From the NCBI RefSeq assembly GCF_017104565.1, contig NZ_JAAGPD010000016.1, positions 62,001 to 126,000 on the forward strand: a DNA stretch of 64,000 nt, read 5' to 3'. The DNA is from Paraburkholderia sp. Tr-20389 (GTDB lineage Bacteria; Pseudomonadota; Gammaproteobacteria; Burkholderiales; Burkholderiaceae). Each line of letters begins with the position of its first letter. Position 1 is the first letter of the stretch. The notes beneath the pieces are model-generated. The model saw only the letters and a list, made by a program, of their open reading frames with translations. It did not search any database and was not told the DNA's origin. Of this stretch, positions 34,470 to 56,091 are shown one piece after another. The position numbers and the translations under genes were made by a program.

Positions 34470-34799
34470 GGTTTCCCTCGTGGATACACGTTCTCTGTAC
34501 ATCGTATCTGTGCTCGGGAAGTTTTCAAGTCTGATGCTCCGACGCAGGAGTAGTCATGCCGTTTGCTTTGGAGACCAAGCCGGGCAAGGAGGAGGGCGCT
34601 AGCATGATGGAGGTGATCGGCCAGAGCTGACGCTCGAAGATAGGCGGGGTGCGTCGGCTGCGGATTAGTTTGCTGCCATTCGCAAACTAGGTCGGCGAAT
34701 GGCACTTCTCGCCGTCAACGAGTGAGTCTTGCCGACCCTCAGGAGACTTTCGACCCTCTCAGGAGCGGCCGTTCAGATCGCCGGTGAGGCTCTACCCGG
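34470..34799. other. Intergenic region with one long repeat copy
   Basis: 330 bp without a supported gene. It contains a copy of the 65-bp repeat at 34617-34681. Confidence 0.5.
34617..34681 (+). repeat. Long-form cassette repeat (65 bp)
   Basis: Starts TCGGCCAGAGCTGACGCTC and ends TTTGCTGCCATTC. Length and both end boxes match the copies at 38381, 44271, 48582 and 49190; the centre is diverged. Confidence 0.65.
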
Positions 34800-35703: not shown

Positions 35704-36091
35704 AGGGAATTCAAGTAATCGATAACAATTATCACGCTCAACCAGATACGTCGGCCCCCCGTCCATATCCAAACATAGAGCGCTCACACCGGCTCTACGG
35801 CAATTTGGCGTGAAACTTGAGCGATCGACTAGAGGCTGTTTTCGGATTGCCCTGATCGTCAGGACGTCCGTCCTAGCCGCATTGAACGATTTAGCCGCTG
35901 GCGTCGAATGACGGTAGTGGCAAGCGTCCGGCAACCAGGCGCGCCGATCGTAGCAGGTGCAGCCTTTCATGCAAAAAGCATAAAGCGACCCGGAGCTGTC
36001 CGTCGATCTTCTCGGTAGCGGTCATTAGTTGTTGGGTTTGTGCGTTGGTATGATTCTGATTTGATCGAAAGGAAACGAGATTGAACAACGA
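35704..36091. other. Intergenic region
   Basis: 388 bp without a supported gene. A diverged partial copy of the short repeat may lie at 35844-35880 (GGATTGCC start, TAGCCGC end), too weak to call. Confidence 0.4.
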
Positions 36092-36478: not shown

Positions 36479-36619
36479 GCCAGCGACGCAATCGAGCCGC
36501 AGTCGGAAGCCTTCGACGCGCATTATCGACGTTCATGGCCCTGCCGTTGATTGACCGAAACCGGCCGTTTGTGGAAGCTGAATCTCATCGACGCTGAGGG
36601 CTTGAGTTGGTCCGTAGGC

Positions 36620-36931
36620 TCACTTCGGCCGTGCAAAAATTGTTCGGACTTCGGTTTTCCAGTCGAGCAGCAACTGGGCGACGCAGTTGGAATGTTCAGG
36701 ATTCGCATCCAGACCCATTCGCTCGCTCGCGATGCTGTCAAGGTATGCCGCGATTATCGACGCATTCGCTCCCTCACCCTGCAGCATTGAGAAAACGCTG
36801 GGCAGGTACCCATAATATTCGTCGCGTGCCGCCGGGCTGTTCGCGACGCCAATCGGGTCCCAAACATAGAACAGAACTTCGTCCACTCGGCGGTACAGTT
36901 CCAGTTCATCATCGGCCAACTTGTGTCCCAT
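36620..36931 (-). CDS. Small DUF1871-like hypothetical protein (cassette gene)
   Basis: A 103-aa soluble protein. LYRRVDEVLFYVWDPIGVANSPAARDEYYGYLPSVF followed by YLDSIASERMGLDANPEHSNCVAQLLLDW resembles the DUF1871-like proteins often found next to polymorphic toxins or as orphan immunity-like genes; this is from memory of the family pattern. It lies 46 bp from the near end of a short repeat (36977-37026), as do the other units of the array. Function unknown. Confidence 0.75.
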   Translation of the reverse strand: MGHKLADDELELYRRVDEVLFYVWDPIGVANSPAARDEYYGYLPSVFSMLQGEGANASIIAAYLDSIASERMGLDANPEHSNCVAQLLLDWKTEVRTIFARPK

Positions 36932-36976
36932 CAGCTTTCCCTTATCTCACCACTCGCCCATCAAGAGACGGACACG

Positions 36977-37026
36977 GAAATTGTCCATGATCTAGGCGTC
37001 GGCGTCGAGCGACCGTTCATGGCCGA
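36977..37026 (-). repeat. Short cassette repeat, 50 bp
   Basis: On the minus strand it begins TCGGCCATGAACGGTCGCTCG and ends GGACAATTTC. It starts 44 bp after the Mrr-type nuclease stop and ends 46 bp before the next gene. Confidence 0.8.
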
Positions 37027-37069
37027 GAGCACCAATTCAACGGAGTGGTCTACAGTCGGGCATCGCAAA

Positions 37070-38026
37070 TTAAATCCGCCTCTCGTCTAGAACTTGCGCC
37101 GCACGTACCATAGTGACTCTGCATCTGGGATAGTTGCGACAGCCCCAGAACAATCCGCCCTTCCCCTGTCGCTCCACCATCTTCACGCGACAGGCTGCAC
37201 AAGTTGGCGTCTCGTAGTCGCCTTCGAACGCCAGCGCAAGTAGCTTTGCCTGTTTGTCGGCGTCAAGGGCACGAATGCGTTCGACAATGCCTGCGCCATC
37301 CACCAATAAAATGTCAGCCTGAGAGGCATAGTCCCGAACTGGCTGGCCGATGAACCCTGCGAGTGACCAAAAGACGCCGCGCTTTACCTTTTTCGAATGC
37401 ATGACGCCGCCGAGAGCCCTCACTTGTTCCACCTTCACAGGGGTCCGCCATGCTTTGCACTGGACGACCGCAATCGGAGCTTCCCGCCCCTCCCGGTATA
37501 GGGTGGCGTCGATACCGCCATCAGCACCATATGGCACCGTCTTTACGGTGAAGCCCAGGGCCTCGTAGTACCAGACACACAGCATCTCAAATCGCTTCCA
37601 TTCAAGTTGTTTGATTGCATCGATGGTCCATTCTGTGGGCTTCGCAAGCGACACCAAGCTGGCTTCGTCGATTCGGCCTGCTCTATCCGAATTGAGCCTC
37701 GTGACGGGTACGCTCGTGCGGACAACACGGAGAGTAGGTTCCTTGCGCAAGGGCCATACCGAACCCGGCGCAGAATCGGACGCCAACTTACGCTTCCGGG
37801 CACGCAGATAGGCCAGCAGCCCAAGAATGGCAAACATCGTTGCCGGAGCCCATGCAAAGAATCGACTCATCCCGGCCACACCGCGCAGGACGCGATTCGA
37901 AGCCATAGCTGCCGGCAGAACGGCGTAAAAGGCTACATAGCTCGCCAACGCCAGCAAAGCCGAAACCCACCACGGCGCATCCAGCAGAACATCACGGACA
38001 GACGGCTTGCTTTTCCTGCTGCCCAT
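37070..38026 (-). CDS. Membrane-anchored Mrr-type restriction endonuclease with topoisomerase-like zinc finger
   Basis: About 318 aa. The N-terminus has two membrane helices (WVSALLALASYVAFYAVLPAAM and FFAWAPATMFAILGLLAYL). The middle is an Mrr_cat nuclease domain: LEWKRFEMLCVWYYEALGF, then GADGGIDATLY and VVQCKAW, the D-(Q)xK active site of PD-(D/E)xK enzymes. The C-terminus has CAAC...CRNYPRC, a topoisomerase I-type zinc ribbon. ATG 38026 has AAGGGG at good spacing; the frame also opens at 38056. Mrr proteins cut modified or foreign DNA; anchoring to the membrane suggests action on incoming DNA, which is inference. It is the largest unit in the array and is followed by a short repeat. Confidence 0.85.
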   Translation of the reverse strand: MGSRKSKPSVRDVLLDAPWWVSALLALASYVAFYAVLPAAMASNRVLRGVAGMSRFFAWAPATMFAILGLLAYLRARKRKLASDSAPGSVWPLRKEPTLRVVRTSVPVTRLNSDRAGRIDEASLVSLAKPTEWTIDAIKQLEWKRFEMLCVWYYEALGFTVKTVPYGADGGIDATLYREGREAPIAVVQCKAWRTPVKVEQVRALGGVMHSKKVKRGVFWSLAGFIGQPVRDYASQADILLVDGAGIVERIRALDADKQAKLLALAFEGDYETPTCAACRVKMVERQGKGGLFWGCRNYPRCRVTMVRAAQVLDERRI

Positions 38027-38542
38027 CTTTAACCCCTTCTTCCTGTTCAAGTCCATTCCGGGGCAAATCTGTCAGAGGCGCACAAGCATCGGCAAGTTGC
38101 GCGACTTCAACATCTACAAGTTAGTGTAGTAGGCATTCGGCGGGTTTTCGGAGGCGCGCCGCTCGTTCGAGTGACCACACATGTGTGCGGCGAGCGGAAG
38201 CAACGGCCGGTTGCCCGCGCTGGGCGATGAGGCCACGTACCTGTCGATGGTGAAGCTTCGGCTCATGGCGCAGTCGATCGACGCGTACAACCGGCCAATA
38301 GTTGCCGAACACGAAACGCTGAAGGCCGTCATTCCAATGGCTATTCACTTCGGAACCTGCTGGATGCGTGACGAGGCGAATCGGCCTGAGCTGACGTTCA
38401 TGAATTGCGGTTTGTGAGGCCGCTTCAGATTCCTTTCCTGTCGTTGGGATCTGTGCGATCGCGAATGTCTTGTTCAATGTGACCGAACTCACACTCTCGA
38501 CCCGGAGCCGACGTTCAAGGTTGCCGAAAGCGGTCACTCAAC
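38027..38542. other. Gene-poor stretch with a long repeat copy
   Basis: 516 bp without a firmly supported gene. A 78-codon plus-strand frame at 38181-38417 ends inside the repeat at 38381-38445 and could be a decayed unit. Confidence 0.4.
38381..38445 (+). repeat. Long-form cassette repeat (65 bp)
   Basis: Starts TCGGCCTGAGCTGACGTTCA. Its second half (TTGTGAGGCCG...CTTTCCTGTCGTT) is nearly identical to the copy at 44271-44335. Confidence 0.75.
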
Positions 38543-38800
38543 TCACTCAAAAGCGCGCTGTATCTGATTGATCAGGGCTGCAAGTTCGGCGTTGTCGCCC
38601 CACATGTCGAATTCCCGAGTGGCAATCAGTCCCATTGTGAGTGGCCCCTGTTTTGGCTCCGACGATTCGCCGGAAATTTGGGCACGGCACCACGTCAATT
38701 GCCGATGAATGCTCTGTACATTTGGCCATGTGGGAGCCACCAGAGGCCCGATAGCTGATAGAGCTGCATCGATCTTGAGTAAGAGTTCGGTGTTCGTCAT
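38543..38800 (-). CDS. Small hypothetical protein (array gene)
   Basis: An 85-aa soluble protein from ATG 38800 (or 90 aa from 38815). MTNTELLLKIDAALSAIGPLVAPTWPNVQSIHRQL and LIATREFDMWGDNAELAALINQIQRAF suggest a small helical protein. DMWGDNAELAALINQIQ resembles the C-termini of immunity-like helical proteins. No signal or membrane segment. It lies between two minus-strand genes; no clear short repeat separates it from the gene at 38871. Confidence 0.6.
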   Translation of the reverse strand: MTNTELLLKIDAALSAIGPLVAPTWPNVQSIHRQLTWCRAQISGESSEPKQGPLTMGLIATREFDMWGDNAELAALINQIQRAFE

Positions 38801-38870
38801 GACGAAGAAATCCACGTGCTACCAGACCGAAAGTGTGACTAACGTTGATGCAAGCGGCAATGTTCCTCGC

Positions 38871-39188
38871 CTAGTTTGTAATGTTGTCGCGTATCGATTT
38901 AGAGTCTTTCGGCTCCCAGTACCCGCCACTGCCGTGATACGTTTCTGCGTGCAGCCAAAACATCTCATCGCAATGCAGACAGCGAAAATGGTACTCGATG
39001 TAGTCGTCCCACGCGGCTCCCTTCGCGAGTTCGGCAAACGAGACGGAGACCCAAGGACTGTCGGGAACTACCTCACCGAGTGTTCCGTCGGCGATGTTCT
39101 CCGCGCCGATTTGTATCGCTTTGCGTAGCTCACGAGGATGTCTGATTGCATAGCGAACGCAAAGATCCTTACATCGTGCACATGCCAC
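38871..39188 (-). CDS. Small zinc-motif hypothetical protein (array gene)
   Basis: A 105-aa soluble protein. CARCKDLC at the N-terminus and CLHC near residues 68-71 are paired cysteine motifs that could bind zinc; the segment DDYIEYHFRCLHCDEMFWLHAETYHGSGGYW is aromatic-rich. It follows, on the minus strand, the short repeat at 39258-39306 by 70 bp, like other units. The family was not recognised. Confidence 0.65.
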   Translation of the reverse strand: MACARCKDLCVRYAIRHPRELRKAIQIGAENIADGTLGEVVPDSPWVSVSFAELAKGAAWDDYIEYHFRCLHCDEMFWLHAETYHGSGGYWEPKDSKSIRDNITN

Positions 39189-39257
39189 AAAAGACTCCGT
39201 CAGGTTTTCGCTGCGTTTTGCAGAAAGTTCGGTTGGTATCGGCGAGTGCGGCGAACA

Positions 39258-39306
39258 GGATTGTCCACGATCAGGGCGGCAGTGTCGAACGCCCGTTCAT
39301 GGCCGA
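39258..39306 (-). repeat. Short cassette repeat, 49 bp
   Basis: Minus strand begins TCGGCCATGAACGGGCGTTC and ends GTGGACAATCC. It lies 10 bp after the stop at 39316 and 70 bp before the next gene. Confidence 0.85.
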
Positions 39307-39315
39307 ACAGAGATG

Positions 39316-39642
39316 TCAGCATTCTTCGACCAGCGGACTACCCAGTGAGCGCCACGCGATTCGTCGATAGGCTCCTTGCAGCAAACCTTCATCGCGAAAG
39401 CGTTCGAAAATTTCTGCCGGGGACCACCCCGGACCTGCGGCGAAACAGAACTCGTGCGCGCGCAGCCGATCGAACAGCGCAGCTTTCTCGCTATCGCCTC
39501 CGACGTTAATCGCGTATGTCCCCGACTCGTCGTTTCGACATTCGAAGCCCATAGCAACAAGCGCATCTTGAAGTCCAACATGGGAAGCTTTTACAACCAC
39601 CTGCGAGGAGGATGCCTCGACAACATAACCGGTATCAGACAT
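39316..39642 (-). CDS. Small hypothetical protein (array gene)
   Basis: A 108-aa protein from ATG 39642 (MSDTGYVVEASSSQVVVKASHVGLQDALVAMGFEC). The open frame continues upstream because of the frameshifts in the neighbouring DUF6881-like gene, so the longer version is an artefact. It has a strand-helix-strand start and a C-terminal helical part (WSPAEIFERFRDEGLLQGAYRRI). Not recognised. It shares its unit with the broken gene upstream, with 8 bp between them and no repeat. Confidence 0.6.
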   Translation of the reverse strand: MSDTGYVVEASSSQVVVKASHVGLQDALVAMGFECRNDESGTYAINVGGDSEKAALFDRLRAHEFCFAAGPGWSPAEIFERFRDEGLLQGAYRRIAWRSLGSPLVEEC

Positions 39643-39650
39643 ATGATTGT

Positions 39651-39958
39651 TCAGCCAAGATGACCAACGCTCGGAACATGACAAGACCATAACGTGTTGA
39701 ACTCTTCCATCGTCGTTTCTCGCGCCTGGAACCTGCGGATCAGCGTTTATCGCAGTCAAAACGGGGGACTGGCAGCAATCCGAGTTGTGTTCCTGATGCA
39801 GTCCGCTCACCGTCCGCAAATCCAACTCGCCCATCGCGAAAGAATTCCAGCTTGCGAATCTCGTAGCGATCCGAGTCGAGCACGGAGAGCAGACGGACCG
39901 GTTCTGCCTCGAAATCATGCTTCCATACGACGTCGATCGCAATGAATCTCTCTCGCAT
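39651..39958 (-). pseudogene. DUF6881-like gene with two frameshifts
   Basis: Starts at ATG 39958 (AGGAGA upstream): MRERFIAIDVVWKHDFEAEPVRLLSVLDSDRYEIRKLEFFRDG, a DUF6881-type opening. The frame breaks at a G5 run (39763-39767); removing one base restores LPVLTAINADPQ, and removing a second base shortly after restores FQAREtTMEEFNTLW-type residues to a TGA at 39651. The total, 308 bp, equals 102 codons plus two bases, which fits two single-base insertions. It could also be a sequencing error in a homopolymer, but two independent events are needed. Confidence 0.65.
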
Positions 39959-40008
39959 TGTCCCGCTCTCCTGGTGTGCCAAGTAGCCTCACTTGCTGCT
40001 GCATCGAC

Positions 40009-40057
40009 GGATTGTCGGCGATTCTGGTACCGAGTGCGAGTGACCGTTCCTGGCCGA
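40009..40057 (-). repeat. Short cassette repeat, 49 bp
   Basis: Minus strand begins TCGGCCAGGAACGGTCACTC and ends ATCGCCGACAATCC. 57 bp after the stop at 40114; TCGGC/GCCGA form an inverted pair at the ends. Confidence 0.85.
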
Positions 40058-40113
40058 TCTCGCTCAAAAACGCGACCGGCTAAATGCCGGCTGATCGGCC
40101 GACCCGCGACGAC

Positions 40114-40620
40114 TTAGTTCAGTTCCTTACGATCGTTGCACTCTCGATGAGTAAGGCGGAGGAAACCCCAGCACACCGAACCACCGATGATCCCAACTGC
40201 AACCTGTAAGCAAGTAAAGCCTATGTTAATCGACGAGTGCACCGTCTTTCCCACGTTCCTGCTGAATATGTAAGGCCACAGCCACGCCCACAGCGATAGC
40301 AGACTTCCGAGGAAGATATAGTAAGTCAAGTGTTGGACGCGAAGCCTCCACGCCAAGAAAATTCCGGTCGCGTAGAGGGGCAGTACTGGAAGTCCAAAGA
40401 AGACGAAGCAGCCAATCACTGCGCCAAGTTCCAACTGCAAGAGCCGTAGGACATGGTGACCAACGTCCGACCGCGGAAAGGCTAGGATTAGGCTGCCCCG
40501 ACGAACGGCAGCGGCTACCTCAAGGGCGGGAAAGAATGCCGCCGCGCCCCCAGCCATTGCAATCGGATATGCGATAACCGCCCGCCAAAATGTTATGAAG
40601 CGATTCGCGTGTTGCGACAT
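40114..40620 (-). CDS. Multi-pass membrane protein, hypothetical (array gene)
   Basis: A 168-aa protein from ATG 40620 (MSQHANRFITFWRAVIAYPI). About four membrane helices: AVIAYPIAMAGGAAAFFPAL, LGAVIGCFVFFGLPVLPLYATGIFL, YYIFLGSLLSLWAWLWPYIF and INIGFTCLQVAVGIIGGSVCWGFL. No family recognised. Downstream on its strand is the short repeat at 40009-40057, upstream that at 40675-40722, making it a complete single-gene unit. Confidence 0.7.
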   Translation of the reverse strand: MSQHANRFITFWRAVIAYPIAMAGGAAAFFPALEVAAAVRRGSLILAFPRSDVGHHVLRLLQLELGAVIGCFVFFGLPVLPLYATGIFLAWRLRVQHLTYYIFLGSLLSLWAWLWPYIFSRNVGKTVHSSINIGFTCLQVAVGIIGGSVCWGFLRLTHRECNDRKELN

Positions 40621-40674
40621 TCGAGTCCTTGAAAGGGGGCGTGCCCTCGTGTTGCGAATGATGTTAGCGAAGCC

Positions 40675-40722
40675 GGTTGTTAGCAATCTGAGGCGCCTTC
40701 GCGATTGACCGTTGTTGGCCGA
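40675..40722 (-). repeat. Short cassette repeat, 48 bp
   Basis: Minus strand begins TCGGCCAACAACGGTCAATC and ends TTGCTAACAACC. 89 bp after the stop at 40811. Confidence 0.8.
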
Positions 40723-40810
40723 CCGTCGCCTTATAACATTCGCGTAGCGGGCCGGCACCTAGGACTGCAGAGTCGCCATGAGCACCCGCTGGCTTCGAGG
40801 AGGCGGTGAT

Positions 40811-41134
40811 TCACGGGGGTGGAGTTCGGCCAGTAACGACAAACACAACGAATAACGAACGGTCTCGCAAGGAATGCAAGAAATCCCGGGCTGCAGAGAT
40901 GCCCTCGTCGACGTTGTTTCCCTCGTAGAACCAATTGTCGTGCGTGGGCTCAAGACCTCGTCCGTCTGACGTTGCGCGGTAAACGTCCCCGCCAAGGACC
41001 AGCCATTTTTGGCCTGCAAACAGGTCCAACGCTTGCCCTGCTTCAGAGAGATCTAGCGCGGCTTCCTTTAGGCCCATAACTTCAAGCGACCGTCCGCTCC
41101 GAGCGTAAAGTTCGAGAATCCTGGAGATGGTCAT
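40811..41134 (-). CDS. Imm40-like small protein (array gene)
   Basis: A 107-aa soluble protein. WLVLGGDVYRATSDGRGLEPTHDNWFYEGN is the core pattern I associate with immunity protein family Imm40 (LGGDVY...YDNWY), followed by a helical C-terminus (VDEGISAARDFLHSL). Imm40-type proteins usually neutralise a polymorphic toxin encoded just upstream; no toxin is present here, so this is an orphan. The start is ATG 41134, with a second ATG at 41140. Repeats lie on both sides. Confidence 0.72.
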   Translation of the reverse strand: MTISRILELYARSGRSLEVMGLKEAALDLSEAGQALDLFAGQKWLVLGGDVYRATSDGRGLEPTHDNWFYEGNNVDEGISAARDFLHSLRDRSLFVVFVVTGRTPPP

Positions 41135-41204
41135 TAACACTCTCGTGGCGCTGTCTAGCGAAAAACTGGATGGATTGACAAGTCGTCGATCGGCGAAAGA
41201 CGTC

Positions 41205-41253
41205 GGATTGTCAGCAATCAGAGGGCGATCGTCAAATGACCGTTTGTGGCCGA
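41205..41253 (-). repeat. Short cassette repeat, 49 bp
   Basis: Minus strand begins TCGGCCACAAACGGTCATTTG and ends GATTGCTGACAATCC. 26 bp after the stop at 41279 and 71 bp before the next gene. Confidence 0.87.
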
Positions 41254-41278
41254 CAGTGAACCGAACAGGAGATCGGTG

Positions 41279-41470
41279 TCACTGCTTCGCCGGGTCAATC
41301 CATCCCGGGCGAAGTCCGCGAACGTGTTCTTCTCGGACCCGCTCGATCGATTCCGCATTGCCTAGCTCGGCCTCAATCTCGCCAACGCAACCCCAGCAGT
41401 CACCGCCACAGTTCATCGACAAGGGGTCGTCGGGCTGATCGAGTGCTCGTCCACATATCCGGCATTTCAT
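41279..41470 (-). CDS. Small zinc-ribbon protein (array gene)
   Basis: A 63-aa protein from ATG 41470. MKCRICGRALDQPDDPLSMNCGGDCWGCVGEIEAEL has a CxxC pair and a CGGDCWGC cluster, a zinc-ribbon-like arrangement seen in many small unannotated proteins. The C-terminal tail ends HVRGLRPGWIDP. It occupies a unit of only 0.3 kb between two repeats. Confidence 0.72.
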   Translation of the reverse strand: MKCRICGRALDQPDDPLSMNCGGDCWGCVGEIEAELGNAESIERVREEHVRGLRPGWIDPAKQ

Positions 41471-41498
41471 CGGTCGTTTTCCAGGGTGTGAATCCCGC

Positions 41499-41548
41499 CA
41501 AATTGTCGCGGATTTACGCCGGTATGTCGAACGGCCGATTGTGGCCGG
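41499..41548 (-). repeat. Short cassette repeat, 50 bp
   Basis: Minus strand begins CCGGCCACAATCGGCCGTTC and ends CGCGACAATTTG. 39 bp after the glutathione-transferase stop at 41587. Confidence 0.82.
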
Positions 41549-41586
41549 CTCCCGTCTCGCGACGAACAACGCCGCTCGTATTGTTG

Positions 41587-42219
41587 TCAAAGCGGAGGCC
41601 TGCTTAGCTCGGCCCACTGCTGCACGGACTCTCGATCCCATTGGCGCGTTGCATACGATGCAAACCTCGCGGGAACGTTGTCGCCATTCATGACAAGGCG
41701 ATTGAGCATGAGCGCCAGATCCGTGTCGGCTATACACCACTCACCAAAGAGATTCGATGCATCCTCTGAGAGAAGCCGGTCGACTGCAAAGTACAGCTTT
41801 CGCACTGCCAGCTCCGCTTCGGCCGAAAGCGCCGGAGCCTCCTTCTTATAAAACACTACCTCCGTCGAGCGCTCCTGACGAATGGGCATCAGGTCGCTTC
41901 TAAGCCACGCCTGAAGTTGGCGCGCTCTTGCACGAAGTTTTCGGTCACGAGGATAAATCAGCGTTTCAGGGAATGTCTCATCCAGATATTCGGTGATTGC
42001 CGTTGACTCGGATAGCGAGAAATCGCCGTGTTGCAATGTAGGTACTCGCTGAGTCAACGATTCGACAGCGTAGCGCTCTACGTGGTTAGCGCCGATTCCA
42101 AGATCAACCGCAGAGAGCTCAAAGTCCAGTTGCTTTTCCCGGAGAGCAACGAACACAGACATCGCGTATGGGCTTGCGAACTGTGCATCAGCATATAAGC
42201 GAAGCGGAGGTTGGGACAT
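41587..42219 (-). CDS. Glutathione S-transferase family protein (YfcF-like)
   Basis: A 210-aa protein. The thioredoxin-like N-domain starts LRLYADAQFASPYAMSVFVALREKQLDFEL, with TQRVPTLQHGDFSLSESTAITEYLDETFP holding the cis-proline (VPTL) and the SES glutathione-binding motif. The helical C-domain has FGEWCIADTDLALMLNRLV. Length and layout fit YfcF-type transferases. ATG 42219 sits beside GAAGCGGAGGTTGGGAC on the opposite strand; the longer frame is non-homologous. Cytosolic; probably detoxification or peroxide reduction. It is one unit of the cassette-like array. Confidence 0.85.
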   Translation of the reverse strand: MSQPPLRLYADAQFASPYAMSVFVALREKQLDFELSAVDLGIGANHVERYAVESLTQRVPTLQHGDFSLSESTAITEYLDETFPETLIYPRDRKLRARARQLQAWLRSDLMPIRQERSTEVVFYKKEAPALSAEAELAVRKLYFAVDRLLSEDASNLFGEWCIADTDLALMLNRLVMNGDNVPARFASYATRQWDRESVQQWAELSRPPL

Positions 42220-42285
42220 GGCGCCATCCTGGGTGATTGTTGATTTTTGCGGCTTGGTGCAAGCCAACGAGATAAACAGCGTCGA

Positions 42286-42331
42286 TGATTGTCGGCGATC
42301 TGGATATTGGTGTCGACCGGCCGCTGGCCGC
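42286..42331 (-). repeat. Short cassette repeat, 46 bp
   Basis: Minus strand begins GCGGCCAGCGGCCGGTCGAC and ends ATCGCCGACAATCA. 52 bp after the S51 peptidase stop at 42383; the most diverged 5' box of the set. Confidence 0.78.
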
Positions 42332-42382
42332 ATTGCGTCGCATGACTCAATGCAGCTAGCGTGTCGACGGCTCTGGGCCACG

Positions 42383-43099
42383 TCAGCCGATGCAAACGGT
42401 CGGCAGTGCGGTCTCGGTTACCGAATTGGCTTCACGGAAGACGCTATGCGCTGTCGATCCCGGTCGCCATGAAAATACGCGGTCGATAGAGGCGCCCTCG
42501 TACAAGACCGCCGAAAAATCGTCAATCGCAACCGAAGCAGGAATCGCACTAGCTTGGAGGGCGGCGTGTAGCGACGTACGTCTCTTCGGATCGCTGCTGT
42601 AGTGAACAGCGCAGCCGCCCGGTAGTAACCCCAAACAGTCGAGCGGACGGTACGTCGGCCCCCAGAATGAGTCAGTGAGACCGGCCTCGAACCAGCACAT
42701 GGCACCCGCGCTCATGCCCGCAATTAGAACGCCGTCTTCCCAAGCCTTCCGCAACGCCGTGTCGACTCCCCACTCGCGCCACACGGCGAGCGCAGACCTG
42801 GTATTGCCGCCACCAACGAATATCGCGTCCTGATCTAGAAGTCGTGCAGGAAATTCGGCGACGGGAATAGACCTGGCCTCGGGTTGGCGAAAGAATGCAA
42901 GGTGGGAAGTGTCGCTGCCTAAGTCGCCGTAGGCGGCGTGGAATTTGTCCAAATGCGCCGGAAGGTCACCGCTGGGTGTCGCGAGAAAGCAAATGTTTGG
43001 TCGTGCCTTTCCTGTTAGGCTGACGAGGTGCTTGTCGATAGGCGATGGCCCATCTTCCATCATGAAGCCGCCACCACCTATGGCAAGGATACGTCGCAT
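42383..43099 (-). CDS. Peptidase family S51 (peptidase E-like)
   Basis: A 238-aa protein of the S51 family. ILAIGGGGF at the N-terminus, IFVGGGNTRSALAVW, and GMSAGAMCWF carrying the nucleophilic serine are the signatures; later histidine-containing residues (AVHYSSDPKRR) fit the active site. S51 enzymes cleave Asp-X dipeptides or cyanophycin-like polymers. ATG 43099 has GTGGAG upstream; in-frame ATGs lie further out. It is the first unit next to the recombinase gene at 43481, which is transcribed in the opposite direction. Confidence 0.87.
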   Translation of the reverse strand: MRRILAIGGGGFMMEDGPSPIDKHLVSLTGKARPNICFLATPSGDLPAHLDKFHAAYGDLGSDTSHLAFFRQPEARSIPVAEFPARLLDQDAIFVGGGNTRSALAVWREWGVDTALRKAWEDGVLIAGMSAGAMCWFEAGLTDSFWGPTYRPLDCLGLLPGGCAVHYSSDPKRRTSLHAALQASAIPASVAIDDFSAVLYEGASIDRVFSWRPGSTAHSVFREANSVTETALPTVCIG

Positions 43100-43254
43100 G
43101 GATGCTCCACTCATTGACCGTCGGGCGCCTCGCAAATCGTTCGGCGCTCGGTCCTGATTGTCGACGAAGTAGGCTGCTGCGTCGAATGTCTCAAATTGGC
43201 CGTCAAGACTCATCCGCCGTTACGGCAAGCCGACGTTCGACCGCATGTCATCGC

Positions 43255-43320
43255 GAACGTCAGCAAAGCGGCGTAGTACAGCCGCATGGCGGCTGAACGG
43301 CGAGCACCGACCATAGCCGA
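43255..43320 (-). repeat. Long-form cassette repeat next to recombinase (66 bp)
   Basis: Minus strand begins TCGGCTATGGTCGG and ends CCGCTTTGCTGACGTTC. It occupies the same position ahead of the intact recombinase as 48582-48646 does ahead of the truncated copy. Confidence 0.68.
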
Positions 43321-43452
43321 AACGCCTCCGCCGGTCATTTGGTCAAACTTCGACCTGAATGGGCCACCGAGTCACGATGGTTGAGAAGGCGCCGACTGCA
43401 ACAATCGCCACGATTGTGAACATTCGCGAGAGTGCAGCAGCTTCACAATGAA

Positions 43453-43475
43453 ACTCCCATCCTTCCTGTGGGAGT
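43453..43475 (+). promoter_or_regulatory. Hairpin covering the recombinase ribosome site
   Basis: ACTCCCA and TGGGAGT form a 7-bp stem with a 9-base loop; GGGAG in the second arm is the ribosome site of ATG 43481. The same hairpin is kept ahead of the truncated copy (48785-48807), although the loop differs. Confidence 0.65.
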
Positions 43476-43480
43476 CTGCC

Positions 43481-44095
43481 ATGAAGACCGAACAATCGCG
43501 TGAAGCGTGGAACAAAGGCAAGCTGGTCGGCCAGAAACCACCCCTCAGGCCTAAAGACGTTTGGGCCATTCGGATCCACCTTCAGAACGCTCATGCTGTC
43601 CGCGATCTTGCCTTGTTCAACCTCGCGATCGACAGCAAACTGCGTGGCTGCGATCTCGTGAGTCTGCGAGTTCGCGATGTCACCCACGTCAATCAGGTCT
43701 TACCGCGGGCGCAAGTCGTTCAGCGAAAGACACAGCGTCCCGTGCAATTCGAGCTGACTGAGCCGACCCGCTCTGCAGTCCGAGCGTGGCTCGACAAGGC
43801 CGCGCTACGGTCGGAGCAGTACCTCTTCCCGAGTCGACTGTCGACGTCTCCGCATCTTTCTACCCGGCAATACGCCCGGATGATAAGTCGATGGGTGGGC
43901 GCAGCAGGACTTGATCCGACAGTCTACGGCACACATTCGATGCGCCGGACGAAGGCGACCTTGATCTATAAACGCACGAAGAACCTGCGAGCCGTCCAGT
44001 TGCTGCTCGGCCATAGCAAGATTGAAAGCACAATCAGATACCTTGGTATCGAAGTCGATGACGCGCTTGAGATTTCGGAACAGACTGAACTCTAG
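43481..44095 (+). CDS. Compact tyrosine recombinase/integrase
   Basis: A 204-aa protein with a complete tyrosine-recombinase catalytic domain: Arg55 in KLRGCDLVSLR, a beta-turn lysine region near 82-84, H152-S-M-R155 in GTHSMRRTKATLI, His178 in LLLGHSKIEST and nucleophile Tyr187 in RYLG. The N-terminal arm-binding and core-binding domains of phage integrases and IntI (about 320-400 aa) are reduced to about 45 residues. It is divergent from the minus-strand gene array, with a long repeat on its upstream side (43255-43320) and another downstream (44271-44335). It probably cuts and joins DNA at these repeats; direct evidence is lacking. A truncated paralogue lies at 48813. Confidence 0.9.
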   Translation: MKTEQSREAWNKGKLVGQKPPLRPKDVWAIRIHLQNAHAVRDLALFNLAIDSKLRGCDLVSLRVRDVTHVNQVLPRAQVVQRKTQRPVQFELTEPTRSAVRAWLDKAALRSEQYLFPSRLSTSPHLSTRQYARMISRWVGAAGLDPTVYGTHSMRRTKATLIYKRTKNLRAVQLLLGHSKIESTIRYLGIEVDDALEISEQTEL

Positions 44096-44270
44096 CGCAG
44101 TCAAGGCTGGCCGCACGACATGATGTTGCATGCGCACTCGTGCGGCCACTTACCGTCGCGCCGCCGTTCTGGCGGAGCAGCCGAGTTGCTTCCGCCAGGC
44201 CCTTTCGCGGAGCTTTCATCCGATTGACGGCAGCGCATTGGGGATCCAAGCGAGGACCGTCGAGTACAGT

Positions 44271-44335
44271 TCGGCCTTAGCTGACGCTCAGGCGCATCGC
44301 TTGTGAGGCCGATTCAGCTTGCTTTCCTGTCGTTC
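44271..44335 (+). repeat. Long-form cassette repeat (65 bp)
   Basis: Starts TCGGCCTTAGCTGACGCTCAG, ends CTTTCCTGTCGTTC, 176 bp after the recombinase stop. Nearly identical second half to the copy at 38381-38445. Confidence 0.75.
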
Positions 44336-44730
44336 GGACATGAGGTAATCGTACCTTTGTTAATCTGGCGATAGGCGAGTACAGAGCCGCCCTCCGCAGG
44401 CGTTCGCCAGTCAGCGGACATCGCAGGTGACAAGTCACGCTGGTCAAAATGCATTGCCTACTTTCCGTCGAGTCCGCCAGATCTCGAGATCCGTTTCGGT
44501 CCGCCAGGCCGTCACGGTAGCAAGGGTAGGTAATGGAACCGAACGGCCATTCCCTCCTGTCACCCTAAGACAAATGATATGTCCTTACGTCGCGGGACGT
44601 GATTCCCGGCCCTGCACGCCGTTATTTTCTCTAAAGGTGTCGGAGTATGAGCTACTGCGCATCTCAGTTTCTCCCGCGCGAAGATGACACCTGTCCCTGG
44701 AGTAACCGGTGCCACTATCGGAATCACGTA

Positions 44731-44770
44731 AAGGCCAAGAAGGGGCAGTGTTCCGCCCCTTCTTGGCCTT
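44731..44770. terminator. Perfect 16-bp stem hairpin
   Basis: AAGGCCAAGAAGGGGC, an 8-base loop, then its exact complement GCCCCTTCTTGGCCTT. It lies 65 bp past the stop of the minus-strand gene at 44835 and well beyond the recombinase. No T-run follows directly on either strand (six T at 44785-44790 on the plus strand), so termination is likely but not certain. Confidence 0.6.
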
Positions 44771-44834
44771 TGAGGTCGATCAATTCTTTTTTCATTCGGC
44801 GATAGTCTGCGCATAGGTTGATCTAATAGAGGTC

Positions 44835-45068: not shown

Positions 45069-45396
45069 TTTAAAATCTCCGATTAAGGATTGCCCGAGAA
45101 ATTATCCAAACGAATTGAAACATTGCATTTATATGCTTATCGAATATCGAATTGCGCTTGAAGAAACGTTATTTCGCTTTGTATCAAAGAATCAATTGCA
45201 CACCCTGTTCTATGGTTCCGTCGACGCACTTTGGATACGTCAATGATTATATTTTCGTCGACGGAGACCTTTTTCGATACCGTCGATATTGAGGGGGATT
45301 CGACGTTTCTAGAAGACTACTAAAAGGACCCCTCCAAATGAGGGGTGTCACTCCAGATTGAATGCCACTATGATCGGTCTAGAAAAGGAGGCAAAT
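45069..45396. other. AT-rich divergent region
   Basis: 328 bp between the secreted-protein gene and the response regulator, much richer in A/T than its surroundings, with the hairpin at 45328-45346. It probably holds promoters for both genes. Confidence 0.5.
45328..45346 (+). promoter_or_regulatory. Leader hairpin before response regulator
   Basis: ACCCCTC-CAAAT-GAGGGGT, a perfect 7-bp stem, 51 bp before ATG 45397. Could be an attenuator or a binding site. Confidence 0.45.
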
Positions 45397-46092
45397 ATGG
45401 GCTGCGGGTATTTCGGAACTGTACTGCTCGTCGAAGACGAGGGCCTTACACGAAGCGCCATGAAGAGCCTCATTTTGGCCAGCGAGCCGGAACTGTGTAT
45501 TGACGAAGCGAATGGCTTTGAGCAGGCTGTGACTCGGCTTGAAAGTAAGGCTTACGATCTAGTATTCCTGGACTACAGATTGACTGGCGAGAAATCAGGC
45601 CTTGACTTGCTCAAGTGGATGCAAGAACAGGATCGCGAAGTCCATTGCATTATGCTTTCCAGCCAAGACGACCGCGAGACAGTGTTCGAATGCATCAAGA
45701 ATGGGGCGTGCGGATTTATCTCAAAGGCCAGTGAGGAAGGTGGCGCTGTGTTCCAGGAAGCTCTGCACACAATCCTAAGAGGGCGGATCTATTTGCCAAA
45801 CACGGTGCTGGGAAAAGGAGGTCATAGCCCGCGACCGACCACGATTAATCGCGGTATTTCAGTCGAAACGCTGAACCTTCCGCCGAGACTTGCTGTGACT
45901 TTACGCTACGTCCTACAAGGCCTTTCCAACAAAGCGATCGCCAGAAAGATGGATATCACTGAAAATACCGCAAAGGAATACTCAAGCGATTTGCTCGCAC
46001 GGTTTAATGTGACGCGCCGAACATTTCTGATTGTAGAAATGGCGCGGCGTGGTATCGAGATTCCAAAGGGAAGTCCGGACATCTCTACGTGA
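45397..46092 (+). CDS. Response regulator, receiver plus LuxR-type helix-turn-helix
   Basis: A 231-aa NarL/FixJ-type regulator. The receiver domain has VLLVEDEG with the acidic pair, Asp59 in LVFLDYRL as phosphoacceptor, MLSSQDD and the FISKAS lysine. The C-terminal LuxR-type HTH (about 160-225) has LQGLSNKAIARKMDITENTAKEYSSDLLARFNVTRR. ATG 45397 has AAAGGAGG at ideal spacing; the longer frame from 45358 is unlikely. It converges with, and overlaps by 8 bp, the hybrid kinase gene, which is its likely partner. Confidence 0.9.
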   Translation: MGCGYFGTVLLVEDEGLTRSAMKSLILASEPELCIDEANGFEQAVTRLESKAYDLVFLDYRLTGEKSGLDLLKWMQEQDREVHCIMLSSQDDRETVFECIKNGACGFISKASEEGGAVFQEALHTILRGRIYLPNTVLGKGGHSPRPTTINRGISVETLNLPPRLAVTLRYVLQGLSNKAIARKMDITENTAKEYSSDLLARFNVTRRTFLIVEMARRGIEIPKGSPDIST

Positions 46093-48118
46093 CTAGCCCG
46101 GAAGGGGAAGACGACGATGTAGTTGGCACGATCTCAAGGATTTTCTTTTTTAGCGATTCAGCTGTGACTGGCTTCGTCAAGATATAGCGTTCTTGAAGAA
46201 TCTCCAGATCTTCCAACCGAGCCTCGCCGGTGATGATCAAACACGGGATGTATCGACCGAGCCTAGTCTGCGTAATTTCAATGACATCGCGGGCTGTCGT
46301 GGAATCGGCCAACCGGAAGTCCGTGATTATGAAGTCCGGGTAGCGTTCAATCGTCCCGAGTATCTCGTCGAGTTGAGAGGCCGAACTCACGGATTCCACA
46401 AGCACCCCCCATTGCCGAAAGAGCGCCTCCATCGCCGCCCTTACAAGCCCGTCGTCTTCCACCAGCAGCGCGTACAGTCCCGATATCTCACCAATCGGTG
46501 GGCTTAATTCGAGAGGCGCCGCACTGGATGTCTTGAGGATAGGATTTTGGCAGATCGGGACTTCGACCGAGAAGCGTGAGCCGTTGCCCTGAGCGGATTT
46601 AAGCTCGATCCGATGTTCGTCCAGCATCGAAATCATGGCGTTGACCGTCGCCAATCCAAGGCCCAATCCCCTCTCTCGATCGCGATCGGGGTTACCAATC
46701 TGAAAGAATGGTCTGAAAATCGCGTCCCAATGTCGCTGTGCAATTCCGATTCCATTATCCACGACGTCGATTCTGACGCGATTCACGCTGCGGACAACGC
46801 CTATGACGACAGCACATCGAGGTGCTTTATTTGTGTCCGCGTACTTTACGGCGTTGGAGATGAGGTTTGCCAGAATCCTCCGAATCCAATGCGGGTCGCT
46901 TCGCACCCAGATGCTTGCGTTTGCTGCACATTTCAGCCGTAGCGCAATGTGCTTCTCTGCAGCAAATGGCAGAGCCTCTTCGACCACCTCATGGACAAGG
47001 GGCGATAAGTCAAAAATGCAATAATCCGGACACACACCACCGGCCTCGAGTCTGGATAAATCTAGCACCGCGTCGAAAAGGCGTGCCATGATGACGGAAG
47101 ACTTCCGCGCTTGGGTTACCAGCTTTTGAGATTCTTGGAGATCGCCGCGTTCTGTCGCTTCCGCGGCGGCGGCAAGGAACATATGAAGCGCATGCATCGG
47201 TTGCCGGAGATCATGAGTTGCCGCTGCAAGAAAAGAAGACTTCTCCGAACTGGCGTCTTCAGCAGCGCGCTTCTGATCGTCCTTTAATCTGATCAAGGCG
47301 TTTTTCTTCGCAGTCTGCTCGTTGTGTGATGCTTCCAGCGCCTTTTGCTTACGAGTCAGATCATCATTCAGAATTTCCAGACTATGCTTCGATAAGGCGA
47401 GTTCTCTCTCTGCAGTAAATCTTTGACGCGCGTGGCGTTCAGAATGAACGTTCACGCAAAGTCCCACTACCATTACGTTAAGCAGCCAGAACATCTCGAT
47501 CAGGAAGCTCTCGATATCCAGAAAGTGTAACGTGATCTGAAGGAGTACGATAGTTGAGACGATGATGCATGCTAGCCAGAACGCCGGTTTAGCCATCAGC
47601 TGCGGCATGCCAAACAAATAGAATAGAGCCAGCGCCATGCTTCCCAAGAACGGAAAGACATTAAATGGACTCGGAACAACCAAAACCATTAATAAAAGCA
47701 ATCCGGCCGCACTGCCAACCATAACCAAGAAGATGTGTTGTGCCGTCTTTTCACTCGAAAACGTGCTTCGAAATGAGAGTGCGATGACGATTCCACAAAC
47801 TGCAATTCCAATGAAACGCAAAACCAGGACCGTTGCCAGAACAGCATGAAACGCAGCATTGCGGCTCGCAGAGTCGAGTTCGACCCACGCGAAGCACGTC
47901 CACACGAAGAACCCCAGAATTACAGCGACACGACGGAATCGCTCAAAACGCCGGCCATGATCGTCGAGGAACTCCCGCTCAACATTAATATCCTTAAACG
48001 GTGTCGGGAAACTGAGTGTATCCGCTAAGCTATCCCATAATTCCAGCGCGGCGCCACGCCACGGTGGCACCTTGTGTGGCTTCCTCGCGGGGTGAATGGC
48101 CATTTTCGATTTTCTCAC
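46085..48118 (-). CDS. Hybrid sensor histidine kinase with C-terminal receiver
   Basis: A 677-aa inner-membrane kinase. Up to seven hydrophobic segments lie in residues 64-222 (for example VAVILGFFVWTCFAWVE and LLLLMVLVVPSPFNVF) with no large periplasmic domain. A coiled-coil linker (about 225-292) leads to the dimerisation domain, His302 in ATHDLRQPMHAL. The ATPase domain has NLISNAVKYA, DNGIGI and GLGLGLATV. A receiver domain closes the protein (LLVEDDGLVRAAM, TDFRLAD, TGEA, TKPVT). Start GTG 48118; ATG 48103 is an alternative. The membrane-core layout suggests sensing within or near the membrane. The signal is unknown. Confidence 0.9.
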   Translation of the reverse strand: MRKSKMAIHPARKPHKVPPWRGAALELWDSLADTLSFPTPFKDINVEREFLDDHGRRFERFRRVAVILGFFVWTCFAWVELDSASRNAAFHAVLATVLVLRFIGIAVCGIVIALSFRSTFSSEKTAQHIFLVMVGSAAGLLLLMVLVVPSPFNVFPFLGSMALALFYLFGMPQLMAKPAFWLACIIVSTIVLLQITLHFLDIESFLIEMFWLLNVMVVGLCVNVHSERHARQRFTAERELALSKHSLEILNDDLTRKQKALEASHNEQTAKKNALIRLKDDQKRAAEDASSEKSSFLAAATHDLRQPMHALHMFLAAAAEATERGDLQESQKLVTQARKSSVIMARLFDAVLDLSRLEAGGVCPDYCIFDLSPLVHEVVEEALPFAAEKHIALRLKCAANASIWVRSDPHWIRRILANLISNAVKYADTNKAPRCAVVIGVVRSVNRVRIDVVDNGIGIAQRHWDAIFRPFFQIGNPDRDRERGLGLGLATVNAMISMLDEHRIELKSAQGNGSRFSVEVPICQNPILKTSSAAPLELSPPIGEISGLYALLVEDDGLVRAAMEALFRQWGVLVESVSSASQLDEILGTIERYPDFIITDFRLADSTTARDVIEITQTRLGRYIPCLIITGEARLEDLEILQERYILTKPVTAESLKKKILEIVPTTSSSSPSGLVT

Positions 48119-48646: not shown

Positions 48647-48784
48647 AACACCTCCGCCACTCATCAGGCGCGTTTCGATGTGAACCAGGCGTTGAGTCTT
48701 GAGTCGCGATGGTCAAGGATGCGCTGGCGGCAACAATCGGCAAGATTGTGAACAGTAACGGCGGGAGCGTCGTTCCACAATTGA

Positions 48785-48807
48785 ACTCCCATCTTTCTTG
48801 TGGGAGT
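48785..48807 (+). promoter_or_regulatory. Hairpin over ribosome site of truncated recombinase
   Basis: ACTCCCA...TGGGAGT with a 9-base loop, at the same distance from ATG 48813 as the hairpin ahead of the intact gene. Confidence 0.6.
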
Positions 48808-48812
48808 CTGCC

Positions 48813-49175
48813 ATGAAGACCGAACAACCCCGTGAAGCTTGGAACAAAGGCAAGCTGGTCGGCCAGAAGCCGCCGCTCAGACCCAAAGACGTTTGGGCCA
48901 TCCGGATTCACGTCCAGAACGCTCACTCTGTCCGCGATCTTGCCTTGTTCAACCTCGCGATCGACAGCAAACTACGTGGCTGTGATCTTGTCAGTCTGCG
49001 AGTTCACGATGTCACCCACGTCAATCAGGTCGTACCGCGGGCGCAAGTCGTTCAGCGAAAGACACAGCGTCCCGTGCAATTTGAGCTGACTGAGCCGACC
49101 CGGTCGGCAGTCCGCGCGTGGCTCGACAAGGCCGCGCTACGAATGACCGGAGCGCATCAAAGACCCGCCCGATGA
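48813..49175 (+). pseudogene. Truncated tyrosine recombinase paralogue
   Basis: The first about 110 codons match the recombinase at 43481 almost exactly (MKTEQPREAWNKGKLVGQKP to RAWLDKAALR). At about 49141 the sequence switches to unrelated DNA, and the frame ends at 49175. The catalytic Arg is kept but the H-R-H-Y half is gone, so the product cannot recombine DNA. The upstream hairpin and ribosome site are intact. Confidence 0.88.
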
Positions 49176-49514
49176 ACGTCGAGCATAGATCGGCCATAGC
49201 TGACCTTCAGGTATCGGATCTGTCAGGCAGCAACGTGTCGCTTTGCCGACATTCCCAGTTCGGCGGCGGCGAACGTCAGCGTTCACTCCTAGCGAACGAG
49301 TACTTGCGACCCACATGAGACATTCGTCGTGTCGCCAGGCGAGCGGCCGGTTCGCCCGGATGAGCGGCCGTTGACTTCGATCGCCAGCCCAGCATGTCAT
49401 CAGTCTCGCCGGTATCTGATTCGGGCGGGAAGCATTTCGGCGCATTACATATCTCGCATGCGATCGAATCGCGACCGCTTGACATCGTCCAGCATCTGAT
49501 CCACCATATATCGC
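49176..49514. other. Intergenic region after truncated recombinase
   Basis: 339 bp with the long repeat 49190-49254 and no supported gene. Confidence 0.5.
49190..49254 (+). repeat. Long-form cassette repeat (65 bp), inverted partner of 48582-48646
   Basis: Begins TCGGCCATAGCTGACCTTCA and ends GTCGCTTTGCCGACATTC. With 48582-48646 it brackets the truncated recombinase as an inverted pair. Confidence 0.85.
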
Positions 49515-55248: not shown

Positions 55249-56091
55249 CGATCGGATGGGAACGGGCGTGGTTGATCGCCCGTCTGAGACCCGACATGTC
55301 CGACTAGGAGTTACTGGGCTGCCGGCGAAGCCCGAAAGCCATCGATGATTTGGAACAGTGAAGACACGAACGCCGACGCCACATTGGGTGACGAAGAGCG
55401 TTCGTCGTTAACATTCGGATGGCGGGTTACGGGGCGGAGCTGACGACTGAACGTCGGACCGACGACGCATGTGAACGACGGCTTATGGCGGGGAACAAAC
55501 CTAAACGATAGCACCAATTCGAGAACGCTCTGCAGATCGGACATTGAGACCTTCAATGGCTACGCACCGGCAACTGACGCGAACGGGAACTAACGGCCCA
55601 GAAGCGGCCGTTCGACGTCTGCAGGAAAATCGTCGACAATGGCGCTACGCGGGCCAAGTACAACAATGAGCGATGTCCAGTCGCTTCGCCAGGAACCTCG
55701 GGTGGGAACCCGTTCCCGGCCATCCGCGATGCGGGGTTCGTTGACGGCTTCCAGAGCAGCAGACAATGGCTGGGCGTTGACGACCTGAACGACGGAGTTG
55801 AGCGGCATCTCCGCCAGCAGACTGCACGGATGATTGAGCCGCTCGTGCTCGAACTCGACATACGCCTACCGCATTGCCATCAACACCGCCGTGCGAAACC
55901 TCGCCCCTGGATCGAGGTCTGGCATAACCCGCGCTGGCCCGCCACGCAGGATGCCCACTATCGACGGGCGAAAGACGTGCTCACGCCAAAGCTGATAACG
56001 CACGGCCTCCTCGATCGGAAGCAACAGCCGCCCTAAAGTTTCTCTTCCGAGGGTCGATAAGACGCACTGGACCATAACGGCAAGAAAAATA
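55249..56091. other. Gene-poor region with one short repeat copy
   Basis: 843 bp without a supported gene. It contains a plus-strand copy of the short repeat (55594-55642). Open frames here are short, lack ribosome sites and overlap each other. Confidence 0.45.
55594..55642 (+). repeat. Short cassette repeat, 49 bp, outlying plus-strand copy
   Basis: Begins CGGCCCAGAAGCGGCCGTTC and ends CGTCGACAATGG, matching the array copies (closest to 41499-41548) but 13 kb away and in the opposite orientation. Confidence 0.72.

Follow-up and report, generated by a model that had tools for sequence, protein, structure and literature searches.

Integrons are the textbook route by which bacteria collect single genes in tandem, and the boxes of their attC sites read RYYYAAC and GTTRRRY. 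Tyrosine recombinases also act in other settings: dif-like sites comprise XerC and XerD arms of the CATAA-N6-TTATG type, FimB/FimE-type recombinases invert one promoter segment, and strand-biased circularizing elements (SE) contain several integrases. The pdif modules are described as relying on host XerCD and dif-like sites (PMC11705084). RIT elements consist of three adjacent recombinases and occur mainly in Beta- and Alphaproteobacteria, while BIM elements possess a second conserved protein and occur in Betaproteobacteria (PMC3414803). Here we describe an array of small genes, most of them followed by the same 50-bp repeat, which adjoins a short tyrosine recombinase gene in Paraburkholderia sp. 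Tr-20389. The stretch analysed (64,000 nt; NZ_JAAGPD010000016.1, positions 62,001-126,000) is referred to as the window. At a probability of roughly 0.78, we read the locus as a gene-cassette system that is integron-like yet not an integron, in which the recombinase exchanges cassettes at the sequence GGCCA.

The array occupies approximately 43.2 to 36.5 kb of the window as a row of small unrelated genes on the minus strand. A position matrix revealed six strong (starts 36977, 39257, 40008, 40673, 41204 and 41499) and three weaker copies of the 50-bp site on the array side, all on the minus strand and thus in the orientation of the genes, together with a plus-strand copy at 55594-55643 (27.9 bits). 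The top score in five dinucleotide-resampled windows was 14.4. The strong copies share a single fixed spacing and score 47.7-57.0 bits, partly by construction because the matrix was built from those same six. The weaker score of the copy at 42285 results from a left end displaced by 3 bp. An earlier note, made from the letters of this DNA, had listed seven copies. All seven are present on the minus strand with starts within 2 bp of those given, but the list was incomplete, as it overlooked the weak copies at 43154-43203 and 36519-36568 and the plus-strand copy. Sites lie 9-88 bp past a stop codon and 28-69 bp ahead of the next ATG start, within 1-2 bp of the distances reported earlier (10-89 and 29-71 bp). 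The two junctions singled out as copy-less (39642/39651 and 38800/38871) are indeed without a copy. The sites of the array are:

43154-43203, minus strand: recombinase-proximal site, attI-like in position (ACGGCCA, core A at 43197; 23.8 bits; 244 bp before the first ATG)
42285-42334, minus strand: cassette site (core A at 42325; 19.1 bits; the match in G020, locus L138, starts exactly at 42325)
41499-41548, minus strand: cassette site (core A at 41542; bounds matches in L151, L157 and L161, from G016, G115 and G105)
41204-41253, minus strand: cassette site (core A at 41247; matrix and match ends)
40673-40722, minus strand: cassette site (core A at 40716; matrix and match ends)
40008-40057, minus strand: cassette site (core A at 40051; matrix)
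39257-39306, minus strand: cassette site (core A at 39300; bounds matches in L134, L154 and L159)
36977-37026, minus strand: cassette site (core A at 37020; matrix and match ends)
36519-36568, minus strand: degenerate cassette site (19.8 bits; matches in G011 and G067 stop 1-2 bp from the core)

The window from 43450 to 36400 was compared with 145 congeneric genomes, 99 of which gave a match (the own genome included), and 30 loci were retrieved, 29 of them from relatives. Matches of at least 80% identity and at least 120 bp numbered 24 and provided 44 usable ends. Of these ends, 23 lay no more than 10 bp from the final A of the GGCCA in a site; a random-shift null gave a mean of 1.1 and a maximum of 10 in 5000 shifts. 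The G108 locus was present in triplicate, and removal of its two duplicate rows left 21 of 42 ends at the core. A second set was obtained by comparing 20 congener loci all-against-all. Here 18 of 71 distinct ends fell no more than 10 bp from a core, compared with a mean of 0.43 and a maximum of 5 in 2000 under the null; these loci had been selected for the presence of sites, but the match ends had not been selected. Since match ends fall at the core, the boundary is placed inside the repeat: TCGGCCA ends one cassette, and the next 43 bp start another.

Individual units illustrate this exchange. G016 and G105 both contain the unit of the 63-aa gene from one core to the next, flanked by different neighbours, and the unit that follows it in G016 opens with its own, different repeat copy. 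Relatives of the 103-aa gene unit (window 37020-36562) were found, whole or partial, in five more genomes with a different left sequence each time. Cassette order also changes, because a pair that is adjacent in G011 (L172) lies approximately 9 kb apart in G078 (L183). Comparison thus shows single units recurring in other genomes beside unrelated neighbours, with many breakpoints in the repeat. A clean gain or loss of a single cassette at an otherwise identical locus was sought in plasmids of Pseudomonas aeruginosa and Acidovorax, which held no useful case: three P. aeruginosa records carry a near recombinase, two of them mutually identical and one at 89%, and all three Acidovorax plasmids share the same region. 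In Sinorhizobium meliloti, where records L188 and L191 are identical, breakpoints were obtained but no clean empty site was found. An annotated Polaromonas region was inspected but played no further part in the comparison.

These comparisons support the candidate gene-cassette system put forward in the earlier note, which had named a constant gene order without breakpoints in the repeats as the observation that would speak against it; in the relatives we found the opposite. The same note had reported the absence of canonical attC cores, and the attC box pair was detected in 0 of 104 sites (shuffled mean 0.4). Its cassette picture is supported, although it overlooked the adjacent tyrosine recombinase, the exact GGCCA boundary, a second site family and the proteobacterial spread described below.

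The genes carried between the sites are as follows:

42383-43099, minus strand: cassette gene 1, peptidase S51 family (PF03575, E 1.5e-36)
41587-42219, minus strand: cassette gene 2, glutathione transferase (NF011693, E 1.4e-93)
41279-41470, minus strand: cassette gene 3, 63 aa, cysteine-rich and zinc-ribbon-like by eye (all Pfam matches below cut-off)
40811-41134, minus strand: cassette gene 4, 107 aa, weakly Imm40-like (PF15569, E 0.031, below its cut-off)
40114-40620, minus strand: cassette gene 5, 168 aa, probable membrane protein by eye (no Pfam match)
39740-39958, minus strand: cassette gene 6a, DUF6881 (PF21812, E 2.6e-19)
39316-39642, minus strand: cassette gene 6b, 108 aa, no assigned family (no site between 6a and 6b)
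38871-39188, minus strand: cassette gene 7a, 105 aa (site directly behind it in L154 and L159)
38543-38815, minus strand: cassette gene 7b, 90 aa (the two-gene 7a and 7b unit is whole in L134 at 97% identity)
37070-38056, minus strand: Mrr-type restriction endonuclease gene (PF04471, E 2.9e-24)
36620-36931, minus strand: cassette gene 8, 103 aa (related unit in G053, G011, G067, G021 and G078 beside other sequence)

At the 38800/38871 junction, L154 and L159 possess the first gene alone followed by a site, whereas the window and L134 share the longer two-gene unit. The relation of genes to sites was scored in the window and 20 congener loci, comprising 106 sites above 25 bits, using an open reading frame (ORF) caller scored on the first two codon positions. 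Only 6 of the 106 sites fell within called ORFs, compared with 1478 of 2100 random points. A gene within 150 bp before the core lay on the strand of the site in 62 cases and on the opposite strand in 3 (random 173 vs 155), and a gene within 200 bp after the core in 71 and 9 cases, respectively (random 193 vs 210). An earlier codon-usage caller was dropped because it missed most cassette genes of the window; it placed 0 of 106 sites inside genes, with flanking strands same-same in 40 cases, same-opposite in 26, opposite-same in 11 and opposite-opposite in 9.

Units were defined as the intervals of less than 2.5 kb between adjacent sites on the same strand. The 61 units so obtained have a median length of 643 bp (quartiles 457 and 835) and a GC content of 55%, against 59% in the regions as such. 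By same-strand called genes, 39 units contain one gene, 8 contain two and 14 none, the caller being prone to miss small genes. A cargo set of 62 proteins was assembled from 51 of 55 cassette ORFs of relatives and 11 proteins of the window. GNAT acetyltransferases were the commonest Pfam assignment (8), followed by methyltransferases (4). Among defence models, mads_2 matched 4 proteins and every other model 1.

A refined matrix built from the congener loci yielded the consensus tCGGCCA..A.CGG.Cg.TCGACatc...gCc.a.ATCGtcGACAATc, and the sites are conserved across congeners. Applied to 435 kb of congener loci, this matrix gave 74 copies above 17 bits, against 0 in one Markov control; the density is not a whole-genome one, because the loci were picked for recombinase or array matches. 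The second box of the repeat, GTCGACAAT at positions 39-47, might serve as an accessory binding site. L093 and L126 contain tandem core sites that are separated by 33-34 bp, enclose no gene and resemble empty cassettes. The own genome contains another strong site at L014:13602-13651.

A second site family, distinct from the 50-bp repeat, is found close to the recombinase. It is listed here with the variant repeats of the window:

44271-44339, plus strand: post-recombinase site, reading away from the recombinase (families D3 and D5; terminates the shared recombinase unit)
38497-38536, plus strand: variant site in the opposite orientation (TCGACCC core, second box AGCGGTCA; repeat family D4; the L134 match stops here)
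38381-38449, plus strand: second-family site (TCGGCCT..AGCTGACGTTC; families D3 and D5; same kind as the post-recombinase site)
35986-36024, plus strand: variant CGACCC-type site-like repeat (family D4)
34617-34771, plus strand: two more site-like repeats (TCGGCCA at 34617, CGACCC at 34733; families D4 and D5)

The variant site at 38497-38536 forms the end of that part of the minus-strand array. The plus-strand run of site-like repeats between 34617 and 38503 faces the minus-strand array, and several congeners, as well as contig C7 of the own genome, contain matches to positions 38380-38506.

The recombinase gene is situated at the head of the array, between two outward-reading sites:

43448-44095, plus strand: short tyrosine recombinase, 215 aa from the first ATG, divergent from the array (PF00589, E 1.9e-22)

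The true start may be the Met at 43481, because the aligned frames of L098 and L119 have a stop before the second Met of the window protein. In 33 homologues, residues R66, K94, H163, R166 and Y198 are invariant and H189 is conserved in at least 90%; we take these six to be the catalytic residues. Of five AlphaFold models, the best (mean pLDDT 78.1, against 52.8-61.9 for the rest) has a catalytic domain and a disordered N-terminus; residues 1-27 fall below pLDDT 50 and are followed by catalytic-domain elements only. Simple (Xer-like) tyrosine recombinases are described as comprising a core-binding domain and then a catalytic domain (PMC8138268). Judged by its model, the recombinase of the window seems to be devoid of a core-binding domain. 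Its nearest solved folds are XerA and XerH, with an integron integrase only at rank 30. The DNA-invertase models NF007371 and NF007370 gave 26.0 and 23.8 bits, both below cut-off. Aligned homologues (n = 32) are 64-88% identical to the window protein.

A truncated second recombinase copy at about 48776-49140, within the segment 48701-49141, is 88% identical over residues 2-134 and contains one stop; a TCGGCCA-type repeat lies close to it at 49189. Between the two copies are genes for a response regulator (45370-46092, PF00072) and a hybrid sensor kinase (46085-48118, PF02518 and PF00512), as well as a perfect-looking hairpin at 44730-44771 that is possibly a terminator. The sole Rfam match, of this hairpin to mir-627, was rejected as chance. 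Contig C25 of the own genome holds a recombinase remnant with two stops (G000:C25:126502-127026).

We compared 107 recombinase loci pairwise and obtained 73 pairs that are alike near the gene and then diverge. The break falls -3 to +9 bp from the core word in 65 of the 73, an interval for which 6-7% of flank positions would qualify. A wider interval raises the count to 68 of 73, but the strict count is preferred because the wide one admits a chance CGGCCA beside an indel (window against G108, downstream). Counted as independent connected groups, 15 of 21 break at the core, namely 9 of 10 on the upstream side and 6 of 11 on the downstream side. Among the pSymA strains of S. meliloti the recombinase block is alike to 0-14 bp beyond CGACCC and unlike thereafter, and the sequence common to S. 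meliloti T073 and SM11 begins exactly at TCGGCCC. Orientation was assessed in 50 of 80 loci, all outside the genus, which contain 139 sites compared with 24 in a Markov control. Within 300 bp of the recombinase, 46 core sites read outward and 2 inward. In 102 loci with full flanks, an outward core was found upstream in 47 and downstream in 53, an inward core in 13 and 12, and in shuffled flanks the counts were 3 and 2.

The recombinase is present in 85 of 145 congeners at a threshold of E 1e-30. At E 1e-40, and with the own genome counted in each sample, it was found in 61 of 249 genomes of a family sample, 14 of 369 of a class sample and 58 of 398 genomes (45 of 212 genera) of a phylum sample; as these samples were drawn differently, the rate of occurrence is uncertain. 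The distribution covers Alpha-, Beta- and Gammaproteobacteria, and the recombinase is found on plasmids of, among others, Pseudomonas, Acidovorax, Polaromonas, Cupriavidus and Sinorhizobium. Of the 145 congeners, 138 have sites at a threshold of E 1e-4; these sites total 1312, with a mean of 10.2 per congener where the recombinase is present and 7.4 where it is not (one-sided p 0.005, kinship uncorrected).

Several records from other lineages deserve description. The P. aeruginosa plasmids pPA942-IMP45 (L127) and pPUV-7 (L128) combine an IntI above its cut-off with the short recombinase. A phosphonate/phosphite operon immediately precedes the short recombinase in L127. In L128, three site-specific integrase genes are clustered near an efflux gene (L128:21240-28323), a trio which in our view resembles a strand-biased circularizing element. 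In the Acidovorax carolinensis plasmids L130, L131 and L132 the recombinase adjoins a large cobalamin gene cluster, from which it follows that the neighbours of the recombinase in other lineages can far exceed one gene. In phages a single case stood out: a human gut scaffold deposited as phage (L192, MT837468) encodes a recombinase of 67% identity, and this scaffold may be bacterial DNA.

Exchange at the sites could be the work of host XerCD or another recombinase, as proposed for the pdif modules of Acinetobacter, with the short recombinase as a passenger; the 54 congeners that possess sites but no close recombinase match would fit such an arrangement. There is also precedent in Acinetobacter baumannii, whose host XerCD recombines sites carried on plasmids, although the outcome is co-integration and not excision (PMC11705084). 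However, a dif-like pattern of the CATAA-N6-TTATG type was found in 0 of 104 site contexts. Furthermore, the same core flanks the short recombinase itself with the outward bias described above, and the flanks break there in many groups. We consider it unlikely that XerCD or another recombinase carries out the exchange.

Comparison of the window with 20.6 kb of Burkholderia sp. Ac-20365 (L047) revealed a common recombinase block at 43197-44339 (1143 bp, 96% identity). At the proximal site this identity runs exactly to 43197 and then diverges; the other matches are short second-family site repeats and the truncated recombinase copy. The unit is thus limited by GGCCA at the left and by the second-family site 44271-44339 at the right, and its presence between unrelated flanks indicates that the recombinase unit is itself mobile, in the manner of a tyrosine-recombinase element with inverted ends at unrelated places. 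Such a 1.14-kb unit, with outward sites on both sides of the gene, might alternatively be viewed as an insertion sequence (IS)-like recombinase element with inverted ends TGGCCG...CGGCCA, whose solo ends or small derivatives constitute the 50-bp repeats while the cassettes are passive. Against this, whole gene units recur core to core, and sites follow same-strand genes in 62 cases against 3, which solo ends would not require; we regard the IS-like explanation as improbable.

A regulatory role was also considered, whereby the repeat would be a promoter or terminator accompanying horizontally moved genes and the breakpoints would arise from short homology. The GACAAT sequence at a constant place within the repeat looks like a -35 box. 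A -10 partner, however, is absent: the -10 score at 16-18 bp was 2.21, compared with 2.22-2.41 at control places, and the promoter reading of the box is not supported. Additionally, none of 8 sites showed a single-strand DNA fold beyond chance (z -1.39 to +0.57; no attC yardstick was folded), and the recombinase flanks break at the same core. A regulatory element appears very improbable.

Finally, we searched for the parts of a classical integron. IntI at E 1e-40 or better was found in 0 of 145 congeners, with the positive controls silent in that search. As the genus-wide search had no responding control, it was repeated on seven records including plasmids, whereupon TIGR02249 exceeded its cut-off in two P. 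aeruginosa plasmids, whereas the own genome and three congeners gave scores below that value. An unusual or decayed integron, with IntI and attC degenerated beyond recognition, shares the layout and could account for the partial TIGR02249 match of 27.7 bits. However, that match is far from the cut-off of 265 bits, the attC box pair is missing from the 104 sites and a fold beyond chance from the 8 that were folded, and the sites are conserved across congeners; we attach almost no credence to this explanation.

The favoured gene-cassette system nonetheless resembles integrons in several respects. Both possess a tyrosine recombinase beside an array of mobile units of varied cargo, mostly of one gene and one site each, in one orientation. 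A site (43154-43203) lies next to the recombinase gene, where it would serve for insertion, and cassettes appear from comparison to be exchanged with breakpoints in the site. Arrays without the enzyme gene are likewise known in integrons, as CALIN (PMC9024848). In contrast to integrons, the system described here has a XerA/XerH-like fold, an IntI score far below cut-off and a site without R boxes or hairpin; its sites read outward on both sides of the recombinase, and the recombinase unit itself occurs at unrelated places. The pdif modules of Acinetobacter plasmids are similarly small gene units bounded by short Xer-type sites, but the present system has its own recombinase gene and no dif-like arms. 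FimB/FimE-type short recombinases are alike in length and catalytic domain, whereas many dissimilar genes are exchanged here. RIT, BIM and SE are alike as tyrosine-recombinase elements; here one short gene accompanies a cassette array, and a single such recombinase gene, rather than three adjacent ones as in RIT, stands at its head. We rate the system a new kind because its defining parts depart from those of the nearest known kind, integrons. Were integrons defined by function, it would count as an integron variant. No description of the repeat or the system was found in the open-access literature; preprints and most subscription papers lay outside this search, and a prior description is possible.

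Several observations weigh against our interpretation. All evidence for movement is comparative, recombination itself was never observed, and it is position and comparison that link the recombinase to the site. In the 44-end set about half of the ends lie away from cores, and in the 71-end set about three quarters. For the Mrr nuclease gene the match ends near the gene ends and not at a site; together with the two site-less junctions, it breaks the rule of one gene per site. Sites persist in 54 of the 60 congeners without a recombinase match at E 1e-30, while G079 has the recombinase without sites. At the recombinase loci, 6 of the 21 flank groups show no break at the core word, and the pairs are non-independent, the Pseudomonas group contributing 45 of the 65. 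Six supporting upstream pairs involve L128, and leaving them out gives 59 of 67; the L128 break may be an IS insertion, because an IS1182-family transposase gene adjoins it. More than 300 bp from the recombinase, core sites outside the genus lack an orientation bias (20 vs 17 and 25 vs 29). G067 and G064 each have an array that lies upstream of the recombinase and points toward it. As a separate observation, the IS1182-family element of L128 (L128:13386-14950) apparently lies within or next to the GGCC core on the upstream side of the recombinase.

We propose the following mechanism for the cassette system. A cassette would open with NNARCGGNCATTCGAC...GATCGTCGACAAT, carry mostly one gene in the same direction and close with TCGGCCA, and the 50-bp repeat would therefore be common to two neighbouring cassettes. 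The short Xer-related recombinase, presumably the acting enzyme, would join and separate cassettes through cuts within or next to the invariant GGCCA, both in the proximal site and in the cassette site. Cassettes probably travel as circles. Joined to the proximal site, the likely preferred entry point, a circular cassette would become the first in the array, reading away from the recombinase, and recombination between two array sites would free it again. The sites would presumably be used in double-stranded form. As outward sites flank the recombinase on both sides, arrays may grow in both directions, and recombination between the two inverted flanking sites could flip the recombinase gene.

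This locus is probably one example of a second gene-capture platform, built from non-integron parts and found across Pseudomonadota, with a short, strongly conserved recombinase that exchanges mostly single-gene cassettes, double-stranded GGCCA-centred sites on both sides of it and a recombinase gene that is itself a mobile unit. If this is true, the system would be a convergent one in which another enzyme and another site serve the same end, and gene-cassette capture would have arisen more than once. The pairing of recombinase and site is directly testable. Tools that rely on IntI and attC profiles should miss the system, and the 1312 sites in 145 genomes of one genus would then represent a large overlooked pool of mobile small genes. 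Such a system would also explain recurrent intergenic repeats, many of which in Pseudomonadota would be cassette borders.

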